Positions 18,839 to 30,562 of a stretch of DNA of 36,342 nt are shown here, in pieces (the stretch's first letter is position 1; every line of letters begins with the position of its first letter). A program made the position numbers and the translations under genes. The DNA comes from Centipeda noxia ATCC 43541 (lineage in GTDB: Bacteria; Bacillota; Negativicutes; Selenomonadales; Selenomonadaceae), in the NCBI RefSeq assembly GCF_000160555.1, contig NZ_GG749280.1, positions 426,171-462,512 on the forward strand, in the 5' to 3' direction. The notes below the pieces were generated by a model. That model had not been told where the DNA came from. It made no database searches and saw nothing but the letters and a program-made list of their open reading frames with translations.

Positions 18839-19381
18839 ATGGCAGAGATTTTGAAGGAAGGTCCGCGGCTGCGCCTGCGGCGTGCAGAAGCCGCGGACAT
18901 CGACTACATCTGCGCCCTGCAGGAGGCAAAGGACAACAGCGACTATATCGTCCCGTTTTCGCGTGCAGACCATGAGACGATCGTCGCACAGTCCAAGGCT
19001 GCGATGGACATCATCGTCGAGAAACGCAGCGGCGGGAGCATCGGGTATCTCCACATCGCCGGTCTCCTCCTCGCCTCCAAAGAGCAGGAGTGGACACACG
19101 TCGTCATCGCAAAGAAGGGCCTCGGCTATGGACACGAAGCGATGAAGCTCCTCAAGGCATGGGCGTTTGACGATATGGGCGCGCACCGTGCGTGGCTCGA
19201 CTGCAAGGACTACAACGCGCGCGCCCTGCATCTCTATGAGAGCGAGGGCATGGTGCGCGAGGCACTGATCCGCGAGACGATTCTGCACCGCGGCGTTTAC
19301 GAGAACCTCGTCGTCCTCGGCATCCTCGATCGCGAATATGCTGCACGAAAACGTGCAGGCCTCGAATTGGAAGGAATGTGA
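18839..19381 (+). CDS. GNAT-family N-acetyltransferase
   Basis: A 180-residue protein of the RimJ/RimL-like GNAT group, which transfer acetyl from acetyl-CoA to an amine. The N-terminus RLRLRRAEAADIDYICALQE is typical, the acetyl-CoA loop is represented by AKKGLGYGHEAMKLLKAWAF near residue 95, and the last motif is ALHLYESEGMVREALIRE. The substrate cannot be inferred. The ATG at 18839 has AAGGGGAT upstream; an earlier in-frame ATG at 18785 lies upstream of the predicted -10 and is not favoured. The gene ends six bases before the deoB start, so the two are co-transcribed. Confidence 0.88.
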   Translation: MAEILKEGPRLRLRRAEAADIDYICALQEAKDNSDYIVPFSRADHETIVAQSKAAMDIIVEKRSGGSIGYLHIAGLLLASKEQEWTHVVIAKKGLGYGHEAMKLLKAWAFDDMGAHRAWLDCKDYNARALHLYESEGMVREALIRETILHRGVYENLVVLGILDREYAARKRAGLELEGM

Positions 19382-19386
19382 CGGTC

Positions 19387-20574
19387 ATGCAAAACACAGG
19401 CATCAAGAGGGTCTTCCTCATCGTACTCGACAGCTTCGGCTGCGGCGCGGCACCTGACGCGGCGGAGTTCGGCGATGCGGCGACGTGCAGCACGCTGCGC
19501 TCGGTGACGGAGAGCGGTATTTTCCCCGCGGCAAATCTGACGCGGCTCGGCATCTACAACATCGACGGCGTAGGGACAGGAACGCCGAGCAGCGCTCCCA
19601 TCGGCGCGCATGCACGTATGCGCGAGCTCTCACGCGGCAAGGACACGACCATCGGGCACTGGGAGATGGCGGGCATCGTGCGCAGCGATCCGATGCCGAC
19701 CTATCCCGACGGCTTCCCGCCCGCGATCATCGCACAGCTCGAAACGGCGTTCGGGCGCAAAATTCTCTGCAACAAACCGTACTCCGGGACGGAGGTCATC
19801 CGGGACTACGGCAGAGAGCACGAGGAAACCGGCGCGCTCATCGTCTACACCTCTGCCGACAGCGTGCTGCAGATCGCCGCACACGAGGAGCACGTCCCCG
19901 TGGAACGACTCTACGATTACTGCCGCAAAGCGCGCGCGATCATGCAGGGTGCGCACGGCGTCGGGCGCATCATCGCGCGCCCCTTCGTCGGCACGTTCCC
20001 AAACTATACGCGCACGCCGCGCCGCCATGATTTCTCCCTCGACCCGACAGGCGACACCGTGCTCGACGCGCTCAGCCGCATCGGCCGCGACGTGATCGGC
20101 GTCGGCAAGATCTCCGATATCTTCGGCGGACGCGGACTCACGCGCTCACTCGGCGTCAATGAGACAAATACCGACGGCATGCGGAAGACGACCGCGCTCC
20201 TCGCAGAGGACTTCACGGGGCTGGCCTTCGTCAATCTCGTCGACGGCGATATGATCTACGGCCACCGCCGCGACGTTCCGGGCTATGCACGCGCAATGCA
20301 GGAGTTCGATGACTGGCTTGCAAGTTTCCTCCCGGCAATGAAGGCAGACGACGTACTCATGATTACGGCGGATCACGGCTGCGATCCGGGAGCAGAGGGC
20401 ACCGACCACACGCGCGAGTACGTCCCGCTCCTCGTCTATGGAGAGCGCATTGCGCCCGTCAACCTCGGCACCTACCCCACCTTTGCCATGATCGGCGCAA
20501 CGATCGCGGACATCTTCGATGCGCCGCTTACGGCAAAGGGCGAGAGTTTCCTGCCGCGCATTCTGAAGCAGTAA
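19387..20574 (+). CDS. deoB: Phosphopentomutase
   Basis: DeoB interconverts (deoxy)ribose-1-phosphate and (deoxy)ribose-5-phosphate, feeding sugar from nucleoside breakdown into central metabolism. The 395-residue protein is an alkaline-phosphatase-fold metalloenzyme: FLIVLDSFGCGAAPDA at the N-terminus carries a metal-ligand Asp, KDTTIGHWEMAG holds the phosphorylated Thr region, and MITADHGCDPGAEGTDHTRE carries the late metal ligands. The ATG at 19387 is preferred over the GTG at 19378; both share an AAGGA upstream. The pyrimidine phosphorylase gene, which makes its substrate, lies 327 bases downstream in the same direction. Confidence 0.97.
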   Translation: MQNTGIKRVFLIVLDSFGCGAAPDAAEFGDAATCSTLRSVTESGIFPAANLTRLGIYNIDGVGTGTPSSAPIGAHARMRELSRGKDTTIGHWEMAGIVRSDPMPTYPDGFPPAIIAQLETAFGRKILCNKPYSGTEVIRDYGREHEETGALIVYTSADSVLQIAAHEEHVPVERLYDYCRKARAIMQGAHGVGRIIARPFVGTFPNYTRTPRRHDFSLDPTGDTVLDALSRIGRDVIGVGKISDIFGGRGLTRSLGVNETNTDGMRKTTALLAEDFTGLAFVNLVDGDMIYGHRRDVPGYARAMQEFDDWLASFLPAMKADDVLMITADHGCDPGAEGTDHTREYVPLLVYGERIAPVNLGTYPTFAMIGATIADIFDAPLTAKGESFLPRILKQ

Positions 20575-20579
20575 TTTTT

Positions 20580-20819
20580 GAGATACCATCTCAACCGTGC
20601 GGAACGCCTTAGCAAACCCTAGTGGAGCAAGTGAGTAAATACTGACCTGCCCAAGAAGCAAGTCCGAAGGACGAAGCTGATTGGGAAACAGGTCGCATGC
20701 GAAAACGTCCCAAGAACACGAGCGTTAGCGAAGTGCGATTGGATGACGTTGACCGCTTGCGCGGTACGCCCCGACGGATTTCTTTCGTTTAAGCGCAGCG
20801 CGTTTAAGAAATCCGTCGG
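20580..20819 (+). other. Structured intergenic element with two tandem RNA-like modules
   Basis: The 327 bases between deoB and pdp hold no credible gene but several inverted repeats. Module 1 (20644-20694) has outer arms GACCTG/CAGGTC, then CCCAA/TTGGG, then AGC/GCT and GTCC/GGAC. Module 2 (20704-20750) has outer arms AACGTC/GACGTT, then CCAA/TTGG and CAC/GTG. Both share CCAAGAA on the left and GATTGG on the right while their outer stems differ but still pair. A 5-bp hairpin (20752-20765) and a hairpin with 14-bp arms (20771-20784 with 20806-20819) follow, and a short one (20580-20592) precedes. The strand of any RNA is unproven. The remaining bases up to the pdp ribosome site contain only short hairpins. 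Confidence 0.55.
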
Positions 20820-20901
20820 TATTTAATCGTACAAGCGCACGATCACTTGCGTAACGAGGCGTTTGCGTGGAGTTCGCAAGGGAAACCACAGGAGCATTCC
20901 T

Positions 20902-22224
20902 ATGAACATGTACGATCTGATCACGAAAAAAAAGCGCGGCGAGGCACTGTCGCGCGATGAGATCGCCTACTGGATCGGCGGCTATGTCGCCGGCACGATC
21001 CCTGACTATCAGGTATCGGCGCTCCTCATGGCGATTTACTTTCGCGGCATGACCGCCGCAGAGACGACATCCCTCACCGAGATCATGGCGGCGTCCGGCG
21101 ATCACATCGATCTCTCGGCGATTCCGGGGCACAAGATCGACAAACATTCGACGGGCGGCGTCGGTGACAAGACCACTCTCATCGTCAGCCCCATCGTCGC
21201 CGCATGCGGCTGCAGTGCGCCGAAGATGTCGGGGCGCGGCCTCGGACATACGGGCGGCACCGTAGACAAGCTCGAATCCATCCCCGGTTTCCGCACGAAC
21301 CTCCCGCAGGAGGAATTTATCAGCGTCGTAAAGGACTGTGGTCTTTCCCTCATCGCGCAGGCGGGCACACTTGCGCGCGCGGACAAGCTGCTCTACGCCT
21401 TGCGTGACGTGACAGCGACCGTCGACAGCATCCCGCTGATCGCTTCCTCCATCATGAGCAAAAAGCTCGCCTCAGGCGCGGACGCCGTACTCCTCGATGT
21501 AAAGGTCGGCCGCGGCGCGTTCATGAAGACGATCGAAGAGGCGCGCACACTCGCCGAGACCATGGTCGCCATCGGAAAGAGCGCGGACTTTCCTACGGCG
21601 GCGCTCCTCACGAATATGGAGCAGCCGCTTGGCTGCGCCGTCGGCAACAGCCTCGAAGTCGCGGAGGCGGTCAGTGTGCTGCGCGGTGCAGGCCCCGATG
21701 ATCTGTGCACGATCTCGCTCGCACTCGCAGCAGGCATGCTGCAGCTCGCGGGACTGGGCACGTTCGACGCCTGCCGTATGCGCGCCAAAGAGGCGATCCG
21801 AAGCGGCGCGGCATTCGAGGCACTCGTCCGCATGACCGAGGCGCAGGGCGGCGACATCTCCGTCCTCCATGATCCGGCAAACTTCCCGCAGGCACGCGTC
21901 CGCCGCACGGTATGCGCAAAAGAAGGTGGCTATCTGACCATGCTCGACGCCGAGACGGTCGGCCGCGCTGCCGTCCTCCTCGGTGCGGGCCGCACGGAAA
22001 AAGATGCGCCCATCGATCACGCGGCAGGCATTTATCTCCATAAAAAATACGGCGCACGCGTTACAGCCGGTGAACCGCTCGCTGAGCTTTACGCTGCAGA
22101 CGAAGCGCGGCTGGATGCGGGTGAAGCGCGCTTCCTCGGCGCGATCGCCTGCGGCACAGAAGAGCCCGCGCCTGTGAAGCTCATCTATGGATATGCAGAT
22201 GCGGAGGGCTGGCATGACCGATAG
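20902..22224 (+). CDS. pdp: Pyrimidine-nucleoside phosphorylase
   Basis: This enzyme splits uridine, thymidine or deoxyuridine with phosphate to give the base and (deoxy)ribose-1-phosphate. The 440-residue protein has the family signature SGRGLGHTGGTVDKLESIPG near residue 110, the phosphate-binding KHSTGGVGDKTTLI near residue 80, and VKVGRGAFMKT. The ATG at 20902 has AGGAG seven bases upstream; an upstream in-frame start at 20863 lacks one. The Pdp type is preferred over DeoA thymidine phosphorylase from general resemblance to Firmicute proteins, but that split is not certain. It overlaps cdd by 11 bases, and its product is the DeoB substrate. Confidence 0.95.
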   Translation: MNMYDLITKKKRGEALSRDEIAYWIGGYVAGTIPDYQVSALLMAIYFRGMTAAETTSLTEIMAASGDHIDLSAIPGHKIDKHSTGGVGDKTTLIVSPIVAACGCSAPKMSGRGLGHTGGTVDKLESIPGFRTNLPQEEFISVVKDCGLSLIAQAGTLARADKLLYALRDVTATVDSIPLIASSIMSKKLASGADAVLLDVKVGRGAFMKTIEEARTLAETMVAIGKSADFPTAALLTNMEQPLGCAVGNSLEVAEAVSVLRGAGPDDLCTISLALAAGMLQLAGLGTFDACRMRAKEAIRSGAAFEALVRMTEAQGGDISVLHDPANFPQARVRRTVCAKEGGYLTMLDAETVGRAAVLLGAGRTEKDAPIDHAAGIYLHKKYGARVTAGEPLAELYAADEARLDAGEARFLGAIACGTEEPAPVKLIYGYADAEGWHDR

Positions 22225-22621
22225 AGAACTCGTTGCACGCGCGGCAGAGTTCCGCAGCCGCGCCTATGCGCCCTACTCGGGCTTTGCCGTCGGTGCTGCT
22301 CTTCTCGGGCGCAGCGGCAGGATCTACGGCGGCGTCAACGTCGAGAACGCCGCCTATCCCGTCGGCATCTGTGCCGAGCGCGCGGCGATTGCAGCCGCTG
22401 TCACAAGCGGCGAGCGCGCGTTTGAGGCGCTTGCCGTCATCGCGGACAGTCCGGAGGCATGCGCCCCCTGCGGCATGTGCCGCCAAATGCTCATGGAATT
22501 CCCAATGGAGCGCATCATCCTTGCCAACACGGCAGGCGATCTGCGCGTATTGACGCCGGAGGAACTGCTTCCGCTGGCATTCGGCGCAGCGGCGCTGCCC
22601 CATGAAGGAGATTTACAATGA
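22214..22621 (+). CDS. cdd: Cytidine deaminase
   Basis: Cdd deaminates cytidine and deoxycytidine to uridine and deoxyuridine, which the preceding phosphorylase can then cleave. The 135-residue length is that of the homotetrameric form. The zinc site is complete: CAE (Cys53 and catalytic Glu55) and PCGMCRQ (Cys86 and Cys89), and the substrate-binding YSGFAVGAAL and GGVNVENAAYP segments are present. The ATG at 22214 has GGAGGG upstream and overlaps the pdp end; its own stop overlaps the next start (ATGA). Confidence 0.97.
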   Translation: MTDRELVARAAEFRSRAYAPYSGFAVGAALLGRSGRIYGGVNVENAAYPVGICAERAAIAAAVTSGERAFEALAVIADSPEACAPCGMCRQMLMEFPMERIILANTAGDLRVLTPEELLPLAFGAAALPHEGDLQ

Positions 22622-24735: not shown

Positions 24736-24783
24736 CAACTATATATAGATTTCCTATTGACGAGTACACACTACATGTTGTAT
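24736..24783 (+). promoter_or_regulatory. Tandem NrdR-like boxes
   Basis: Two 16-base sites resemble the NrdR consensus acaCwAtATaTwGtgt. Site 1 (24736-24751) has a perfect 10-base core, CTATATATAG; site 2 (24768-24783) is ACACTACATGTTGTAT and matches 13 of 16 positions. Their centres are 32 bases apart, about three helical turns, as is usual for NrdR pairs. Site 2 covers the spacer and the first bases of the -10 of the promoter, fitting repression. Confidence 0.75.
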
Positions 24784-24786: not shown

Positions 24787-24859
24787 CCATCACGTAGCGG
24801 CGATCCGCCGCCAAGAATAAACAGCCGCCGGCACGCCGCGCGGAAAAGGAGAATGCAGC

Positions 24860-25144
24860 ATGATCGTCAACGATATCAACGTCACGGTAAACGGCCTCTC
24901 GGACATCACCCAGCATGAGGTTGAAAACTACATCGCCTACATCGAGGGTCAGACCCATGAGAAGCTCGACCGTCTCTCCATCACGGGAACGGACGACGGA
25001 CGCGTCACCCTCGGCTATGAGATGCGCCAGCCGAAATTCGAGCGCGTCCGCCGCATCACAGGCTATCTCGTCGGCACCACGGACCGCTGGAATAATGCGA
25101 AGCAGGCCGAAGAGCATGAGCGTGTCAAGCACGGACTCCACTGA
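24860..25144 (+). CDS. Stand-alone NrdD glycyl-radical-tail-like protein
   Basis: A 94-residue protein whose last ~32 residues (VRRITGYLVGTTDRWNNAKQ followed by AEEHERVKHGLH) resemble the C-terminal tail of class III ribonucleotide reductase NrdD, where the pattern RRVCGYLG...K.EEVKRRVKH surrounds the radical Gly. Gly68 in RITGYL would be the radical site. The ATP-cone and ten-stranded catalytic barrel are absent, and so are the four zinc Cys that precede the tail in NrdD; the first 60 residues (INVTVNGLSDITQHEVENYI onward) are unlike NrdD. The ATG at 24860 has AAAAGGAG upstream. It overlaps nrdG by 29 bases and sits behind NrdR-like and DnaA sites, which independently supports an RNR role. 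It may act like the spare-part protein GrcA/YfiD does for PFL (inference). Confidence 0.75.
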   Translation: MIVNDINVTVNGLSDITQHEVENYIAYIEGQTHEKLDRLSITGTDDGRVTLGYEMRQPKFERVRRITGYLVGTTDRWNNAKQAEEHERVKHGLH

Positions 25145-25643
25145 GATTCACATCTCCGGAATCGCGCGCGACTCCATCGTGGACGGCGAGGGCATCCGGC
25201 TGACCGTATTCACCCAGGGGTGTCCGCGGCGCTGTCCGGGTTGCCATAACCCGGACACACAGCCGCTCGTCGGCGGACGGATGACCACGGTCGGCGAGAT
25301 TATCGCCGAACTCGACGCCAATCCACTTCTCACAGGGCTCACCCTCAGCGGCGGTGAGCCCTTTCTGCAGCCGGCCGCTCTGCTCCCGCTGGCACGCGCG
25401 GCTCATGAACGCGGTCTCGATGTCTGGAGTTATTCCGGCTTTACGCTCGAGGAGCTGCGCGCGCAGGGAGACCCCGATGTGGATGCACTGCTCGATGAGC
25501 TCGACGTGCTCGTTGACGGCGACTACCGCGAGGAGCTGCGCGATCTCACGCTGCACTTTCGCGGCTCGCGCAATCAGCGTGTCATTGACCTCGCCGCGAC
25601 CCGCGCCACCGGAACCCTGGCACTTTTATACGCAGACGAATAG
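25116..25643 (+). CDS. nrdG: Anaerobic ribonucleotide reductase activating protein
   Basis: NrdG is a radical-SAM enzyme that uses a 4Fe-4S cluster and S-adenosylmethionine to place the glycyl radical on NrdD. The 175-residue product has the cluster motif CPRRCPGC (Cys36, Cys40, Cys43), an upstream DGEGIRLTVFTQG, and the SAM-binding GGEPFLQ. The preferred start is the ATG at 25116, inside the end of the preceding gene; a GTG at 25122 is close by. The overlap predicts translational coupling to the NrdD-tail protein. No full nrdD is in the window. Confidence 0.95.
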   Translation: MSVSSTDSTEIHISGIARDSIVDGEGIRLTVFTQGCPRRCPGCHNPDTQPLVGGRMTTVGEIIAELDANPLLTGLTLSGGEPFLQPAALLPLARAAHERGLDVWSYSGFTLEELRAQGDPDVDALLDELDVLVDGDYREELRDLTLHFRGSRNQRVIDLAATRATGTLALLYADE

Positions 25644-29742: not shown

Positions 29743-29793
29743 AAAGCGGCTGCTGTACGAAGTTGGAAAGCTTCGTGCAGCAGCCGCTTTTTC
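29743..29793. terminator. Terminator between convergent holA and pflA
   Basis: A 20-bp stem with one G-T pair (29743-29762 with 29771-29790) closes an eight-base loop. On the plus strand the stem is followed by TTT, giving an AAA...TTTTTT shape that works for holA; the minus strand ends in TTTCTTT, so it may serve both genes. Confidence 0.85.
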
Positions 29794-30562
29794 AGTGATG
29801 TAAATAGCCCATATAATCCTTCACGCGCAGGATCTCCTCCGCGCGTGCAATCTCCGCTGCCGTCGGCGCGGGCGTCTCACCCAGCCGGTACGGCAGGTGC
29901 AGCTCCTCGTATTTATGGAGCGCCATCGCGTGATACGGCAGGACCTCTACGCGGTCCACCGTCTTGAGAAGGGCGATGAACTCCGACAGCCGCCGAAGGT
30001 CCGCCTCGTCTGTCGTTACGCCCGGCACCAGCACATGGCGAATCCACATCCGCACACCGCGCTCTGAGAGAAACGCAGCGAGCGTGAGCGTGTTCACATT
30101 CGATGCGCCGACGAGAGCGATGTGCTTCACGGGATCGATGTGCTTGATATCGAGCAGAAACAGATCCGTGAGCGGCAGCAGCTGCTCAAATGCACTGAGG
30201 AACGGTTCCTCATGCGTAAACGGCTCGCCCGCCGTGTCGATGGCTGTGGTCACGCCCTTTTCCTTCGCAAGGCGAAAGAGCTCTGTTACGAACTCCAGCT
30301 GCAGCAGCGGCTCTCCGCCGCTGACGGTGATGCCGCCCGTCTTTTTCCAGTAGGGACGGTAACGCATCGCCTGCTGAAAGATCTCCTCCGGCGACGCCTC
30401 ATAGCCGCCCTCTGCTGTCCATGTCTCGGGATTGTGGCAGTACTGGCAGCGATAGCGGCATCCCTGCATAAAGACGATGAAGCGGATGCCCGGCCCGTCG
30501 ACCGAGCCGAAGCTCTCCGTCGCACTGATGCGCCCTTTGATGAGGTTCTCACATGCGCTCAT
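29792..30562 (-). CDS. pflA: Pyruvate formate-lyase activating enzyme
   Basis: PflA is a radical-SAM enzyme that installs the glycyl radical on PflB under anaerobic conditions. The 256-residue protein has [17 protein letters not shown] followed by the cluster motif CRYRCQYC (Cys35, Cys39, Cys42), a GGEPLLQ SAM-binding motif, and [15 protein letters not shown]. The ATG at 30562 overlaps the pflB end by 14 bases and has no clear ribosome site, consistent with translational coupling. It is a companion of the NrdG activase at 25116 in type but not in substrate. Confidence 0.96.

Follow-up and report, generated by a model that had tools for sequence, protein, structure and literature searches.

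The window, a stretch of 36,342 nucleotides from Centipeda noxia ATCC 43541 (Selenomonadaceae, Negativicutes; contig NZ_GG749280.1, positions 426,171 to 462,512), contains a small open reading frame followed by nrdG, the gene for the activase of class III ribonucleotide reductase (RNR). The features of this locus are as follows.

24736..24749, + strand: NrdR-like box 1 (pattern match)
24768..24781, + strand: NrdR-like box 2 (pattern match; 32 bp from box 1)
24846..24851, + strand: Shine-Dalgarno sequence AAGGAG of the small gene (read by eye; 8 nt upstream of the ATG)
24860..25144, + strand: 94-codon open reading frame for a putative free-standing glycyl-radical subunit of 94 residues (Pfam, NCBIfam, alignments, structure model, dN/dS)
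25122..25643, + strand: nrdG, class III RNR activase (TIGR02491, 135.7 bits, cut-off 126.1; CX3CX2C cluster motif read in the sequence)

The likely start of nrdG is a GTG at 25122. This inferred start lies inside the small gene, ahead of its end at 25144, so that the two genes overlap, as the original prediction had claimed from the letters of the DNA. An nrd-type control region had also been proposed, and the two NrdR-like boxes bear this out; they were found with a pattern built on what we take to be the NrdR box consensus. Upstream of the small gene this pattern has three matches (two are one palindrome read on both strands), compared with 0.32 expected, and none of 100 shuffles had as many. 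The genome also carries an NrdR gene. A box pair with 6 mismatches of 28 precedes the small gene in all five loci of the genus that were tried, and pairs with 5-9 mismatches precede seven small genes of other genera. The pair is weaker upstream of the distant nrdD described below, with 6-8 mismatches for seven nrdD genes of the genus; 16 nrdD loci were given for this scoring and eight were parsed, the single one from outside the genus scoring 11. Among random stretches from such loci, 12 of 300 scored 8 mismatches or fewer, and some of these may cover real boxes. Elsewhere in the window, the upstream open reading frames at 19378-22621 are presumably nucleoside salvage genes, and we take the one at 29792-30562 to encode a pyruvate formate-lyase (PFL) activase. 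A search against an anti-phage library gave no match.

The 94-residue protein matches the NrdD profile over its final 31 positions. Its residues 58-91 align with positions 532-562 of PF13597 (NRDD; E 4.6e-8, 32.6 bits, cut-off 26.2), and residues 54-92 map to the extreme end of the anaerobic RNR models of NCBIfam. Pfam found no ATP-cone or any second family at E <= 1, nor did PF01228, the PFL-type Gly_radical family, match at that threshold, at which the HMMER filters may drop weak hits; the sequence contains no cysteine. It had been claimed that the protein retains only the radical tail of NrdD and lacks the ATP-cone, the barrel and the zinc cysteines, and these searches agree. The N-terminal ~55 residues have no NrdD match in Pfam. 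They are predicted to form a beta-alpha-beta-beta domain (about residues 1-56), after which comes the NrdD radical tail with Gly68 in RRITGYL. In the AlphaFold model of the protein alone, mean pLDDT per block is 84-91 over residues 1-60 and falls to 59, 49, 53 and 43 over residues 61-94, the model being confident for the N-terminal domain and floppy in the loop; Foldseek found no PDB match to this model with E <= 0.001. Gly68 is invariant in alignments of standalone proteins (24/24 and 78/78 rows). A profile search against the NrdD family and the conservation of Gly68 had been set beforehand as refutation tests, and neither refuted the resemblance to the NrdD tail. Within the genus, dN/dS is about 0.006-0.054 (simple count, 13 comparisons) and changes are mostly silent, indicating a gene under selection. 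Paralogues that consist of the N-terminal domain without a tail also occur (L329-L338, L341, L369-L373), and the two that were tested (L330, L370) matched no Pfam family above its cut-off.

The source genome has two matches to PF13597 and no third: the small tail (532-562) and an NrdD on another contig (1-532). This distant NrdD is about 754-795 residues long, depending on its start, and has an ATP-cone and a barrel. It ends after the Cys-rich CGYTG...CPHC stretch, just before the position of the RRITGYL loop and without any such motif, in ...CPHCHRKEKAFGTMTLPRMKD, and the gene after it is convergent. The active-site motifs are kept (NANIN at 121 for NxN, HIHD at 164 for HxHD, and GCRTRV), and Cys462 aligns with the thiyl cysteine Cys416 of Prevotella copri NrdD (chain numbering offset 4, derived from the NxN motif). 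Gly68 and Tyr69 of the small protein correspond by motif to P. copri Gly711 and Tyr712. The barrel with its thiyl cysteine is thus present, the radical loop is missing from the same chain, and the break leaves the zinc-site stretch on NrdD and places the radical half on a separate protein. No large subunit of a class I or II RNR was found in the genome, which is 99.98% complete, in a search whose positive control succeeded in 11 of 14 genomes. We considered a full-length second NrdD copy or another RNR class, and found neither in the source genome. An assembly or frameshift artefact was likewise ruled out by the recurrence of the truncation near the same place in many genomes, together with the convergent downstream gene. 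The genome search for nrdD and its C-terminus that had been suggested therefore returned one NrdD without a glycyl radical motif of its own, in favour of the proposal that NrdD is split and that the small protein is its detached radical subunit, with the rest encoded elsewhere. At the level of sequence, the only RNR found in this organism is a two-gene class III enzyme whose radical glycine lies on a separate, conserved protein, and the genome has both that glycine motif and a dedicated activase, NrdG.

AlphaFold was also run on a truncated NrdD relative and its small protein in tandem, and the barrel of the model superimposes on P. copri NrdD (8p2s; Z 44.7, rmsd 2.6, 535 residues aligned, up to model residue 716). 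The tail is undocked in this model, whose alignment had no tails in its other rows; block means are 25-58 over the final 130 residues, with the loop region drawn as a helix.

Standalone proteins fall into two types: the tail of type A resembles that of the long, ATP-cone NrdD, and that of type B resembles the short NrdD. In five genomes with both NrdD types (seven comparisons), identity of the small tail is 55-90% with the NrdD of its own type and 23-32% with that of the other type. Type-A tails are closer to the NrdD of their own genome than to others (0.882 versus 0.829 in 18 genomes, reached in 0 of 10,000 permutations, relatedness not removed). For type B the same-genome resemblance does not go beyond chance (0.663 versus 0.661 in 11 genomes; 4396 of 10,000 permutations), which counts against such a match there. 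The equivalent of Gly68 is invariant in 18/18 type-B rows. The full-length short-type NrdD of L251 (genome G243) reads RRITSYL, with serine for the radical glycine, and the same genome has a type-B protein with glycine (L068); this may reflect rescue of a dead tail in trans or, alternatively, a seryl radical. L097 (G288), perhaps a fresh tail duplication, is a 55-residue open reading frame limited to the RRITGYLVG tail; a full-length long-type NrdD lies about 6.6 kb away.

Within the family Selenomonadaceae, PF13597 matched in 145 of 151 genomes, and most of the long matches among those listed end at profile position 529-541. The other 13 members of the genus in this set have two matches each, of which the one listed ends at 532-533. 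Truncated NrdD is found in 27 of 36 family genomes examined, and all 27 have a standalone tail; the NrdD C-terminus was read for 22 of them, and G001, G009, G018, G020 and G024 were judged by profile range. A further genome, G026, has both truncated NrdD and a tail, but with one TGA read through, and is excluded from the 27. The remaining family genomes include three with full-length NrdD and no standalone tail (G011, G030, G052), three with full-length NrdD and interrupted genes (G103, G133, G150), and one with no PF13597 match (G029). G023, with an NrdD match of 1-478 and no standalone tail, was dropped as a counterexample because its NrdD runs off the contig end; it has a tail-less paralogue.

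In the rest of the class, at least 15 genomes have truncated NrdD among the matches listed (58 genomes), and a type-B standalone protein accompanies it in each of these 15. The twelve that were read are short-type, while G172 (in two contig pieces), G181 and G237 were judged by range; a weaker 1-525 match in G308 (376 bits) is excluded. A class follow-up of 41 genomes found a whole standalone match in 32, of which two (G231, G232) are type A; 17 of the 32 have no truncated NrdD among the matches listed and so pair a full-length NrdD with a standalone protein. The nine without a whole standalone match are G023, G151, G156, G221, G222, G225, G234, G239 and G315. Across the 42 genomes judged, none has truncated NrdD without a standalone tail. 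G170 counts against a strict pairing, having a type-B small protein, two full-length NrdDs and no truncated NrdD among the matches listed.

The small gene adjoins nrdG in 11 of 15 loci (L166-L180), and truncated NrdD is present in seven, six of these with nrdG. Counting against the link, seven type-B loci from truncated-NrdD genomes have no nrdG within the stretch examined (two of them stop at a contig end). No nrdG was seen either in the stretch examined of 61 standalone-gene loci among L181-L245. Viral contigs carry either truncated NrdD with standalone tail and NrdG (L112-L114, L116) or a standalone gene without NrdD in the stretch examined (L104-L109, L111, L115).

In a tree of 100 NrdD core sequences that stop short of the tail, the truncated state requires at least 13 changes, nine of them forced by starred branches, although the tree was built by a quick method with long-branch warnings. 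A careful tree of 28 short-type cores gives six changes (6-7 in bootstraps, three forced). Since truncated and full-length cores are intermixed, recurrent loss of the NrdD tail is likely, though the change count alone cannot separate loss from gain; regain is also possible, because the full-length family NrdDs L003 and L004 fall within a group of mostly truncated ones. One genus of the family has inserts in both genes. The small gene is interrupted directly after the radical Gly codon by 237-746 nt (L365, L366, L374-L382), and these inserts look intron-like because the long ones encode an HNH-endonuclease-like open reading frame (by Pfam in L375 only). Rfam found no intron family in the interrupted small genes, and its single match, to a snoRNA with E 0.13, was taken as chance. 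In L383 and L384 of the same genus, an intein-like insert lies in truncated NrdD directly before the catalytic cysteine (MG / CRTRV); that of L383 has a LAGLIDADG domain and an intein-splicing match under the cut-off. Elsewhere, the NrdD open frames of L254 and L271 end in a thioredoxin/glutaredoxin-like extension, recognised by eye.

Outside the family, the small protein also accompanies an intact enzyme. The best 80 matches include Selenomonas sp. FOBRC6, a close relative of the source organism (99% identity), and standalone proteins from MAGs or isolates labelled Ruminococcus, Oscillospiraceae, Lachnospiraceae, Anaerotignum, Raoultibacter, Enterorhabdus, Erysipelotrichaceae, Acholeplasmatales and others. 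Twenty-four such loci, chosen for having a hit, led to 23 genomes for profile search. Three of these (labelled Selenomonas, Megamonas and Anaerovibrio) have truncated NrdD with a standalone protein. Among the 20 outside the family, 16 have full-length NrdD with a standalone protein, a fraction that is no prevalence because the genomes were selected for having a hit; the other four are G387 (partial NrdD with standalone), G391 (full-length only), G392 (standalone only) and G400 (pieces). Genes for oxygen defence adjoin the standalone gene in 9 of the 61 loci, whose NrdD state is known only for genomes in the 23-genome search. In eight, the next same-strand gene, at 4-111 nt by ORF ends, encodes rubrerythrin (6), flavin reductase-rubredoxin (1) or flavodiiron protein (1), and in L244 a rubrerythrin-like frame lies 12 nt upstream. 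The eight loci are not independent, as most are Ruminococcus-like, and 9/61 has no background rate to be set against; in the class loci an oxygen-defence gene occurs in 2 of 24, at 0.8-1.7 kb on the other strand. By analogy, full-length NrdD with a standalone protein, sometimes beside rubrerythrin or flavodiiron genes, may represent a state like that of GrcA, the spare part of PFL, with repair as its putative function. Such a role is consistent with the homologues found alongside a full-length NrdD in other bacteria.

Taken together, we consider it very probable that the class III RNR comes in two pieces here and that the 94-residue protein is the subunit bearing the radical. NrdG would place the radical on Gly68, and the loop of the small protein would enter the barrel of NrdD, as the loop of other NrdDs does in cis, and form the thiyl radical on Cys462. 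The ancestor of the subunit may have been a GrcA-like spare part, of the kind that persists beside full-length NrdD in Clostridia, Coriobacteriia and other groups; with such a replacement at hand, NrdD would have shed its own loop on several occasions, the repair factor presumably becoming an obligate subunit. For the broader history we lean towards a GrcA-like class III RNR spare part, widespread in anaerobic bacteria and some phages, that became an obligate, essential radical subunit as NrdD repeatedly lost its loop in Selenomonadaceae and in several further lineages of the class; the outcome would be a class III RNR of two components.

Simple fission of one gene into NrdD and the small gene, with no repair ancestry for the latter, predicts the order nrdD, small gene, nrdG that is seen in several loci. 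We regard it as unlikely, however, as the small protein has its own N-terminal domain without NrdD match and coexists with full-length NrdD in other bacteria. Moreover, part of the strand that precedes the loop survives in short-type truncated NrdDs (which end in sequences such as IRRVRKIIE, against IRRVRRITGYL in relatives), so that the small protein and NrdD overlap. Service to another glycyl-radical enzyme, or regulation of NrdG, with truncated NrdD using another radical route, is very improbable: the tail-less paralogues do suggest that the N-terminal domain may have another role, but the tail matches NrdD rather than PF01228, and the co-occurrence of truncated NrdD with a standalone tail has no exception in the genomes judged. 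The other role originally proposed, repair of an oxygen-cleaved full-length NrdD, draws on the coexistence and oxygen-defence neighbours seen elsewhere, but it is largely refuted for the source organism, where no full-length NrdD was found, and the matches in the rest of the genus follow the same pattern.

Known systems resemble this arrangement in part. As described in PMC8683613, the PFL cofactors GrcA/YfiD and T4 Y06I are likewise small proteins that copy the radical-Gly end of a large glycyl radical enzyme, with a loop proposed to insert into a barrel that lacks its own. They have a PFL-type tail, whereas here an NrdD-type tail follows a predicted folded N-terminal domain, and the small protein supplies the one radical glycine found for a permanently truncated partner. 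The same account treats spare parts for other glycyl radical enzymes as possible and shown only for PFL, and F. nucleatum is described as having no autonomous glycyl radical cofactor (PMC12288474). The split class II RNR NrdJa/NrdJb also divides the catalytic polypeptide between two genes, but is B12-dependent and has no glycyl radical (PMC4520616; PMC9669993). Phage nrdD is found in pieces as well, through introns, inteins or gene breaks; these are mobile elements or unexplained breaks, and the excerpted text of PMC3653736 describes no radical subunit encoded apart and bearing an N-terminal domain of its own. P. copri NrdD (8p23) shares the ATP-cone, the barrel, the Cys416 equivalent, the Cys-rich zinc-site stretch and the radical glycine with its following tyrosine, and in its radical domain the zinc site precedes the radical loop (PMC11226230). 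It is one polypeptide, however, whereas here the break falls between these two elements. Class III RNR is tabulated with its radical on a glycine in the enzyme (PMC4390871). We found no description of a split NrdD with a separate radical subunit in the open-licence papers searched, an absence that is no proof, and a spare-part protein for class III RNR is apparently undescribed so far.

A separate radical subunit, if true, would add an architecture to class III RNR. It also carries a warning for annotation, as the NrdD of these genera lacks the radical residue. Oxygen would be expected to cleave NrdD at the glycine and leave a product resembling truncated NrdD, which makes repair by a standalone radical domain directly testable. 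Both states, full-length and truncated NrdD each with a standalone protein, exist in nature and amount to experiments on whether a spare part can sustain an essential radical enzyme. The small protein of Centipeda noxia and its relatives may thus show a spare part turning into an essential part.
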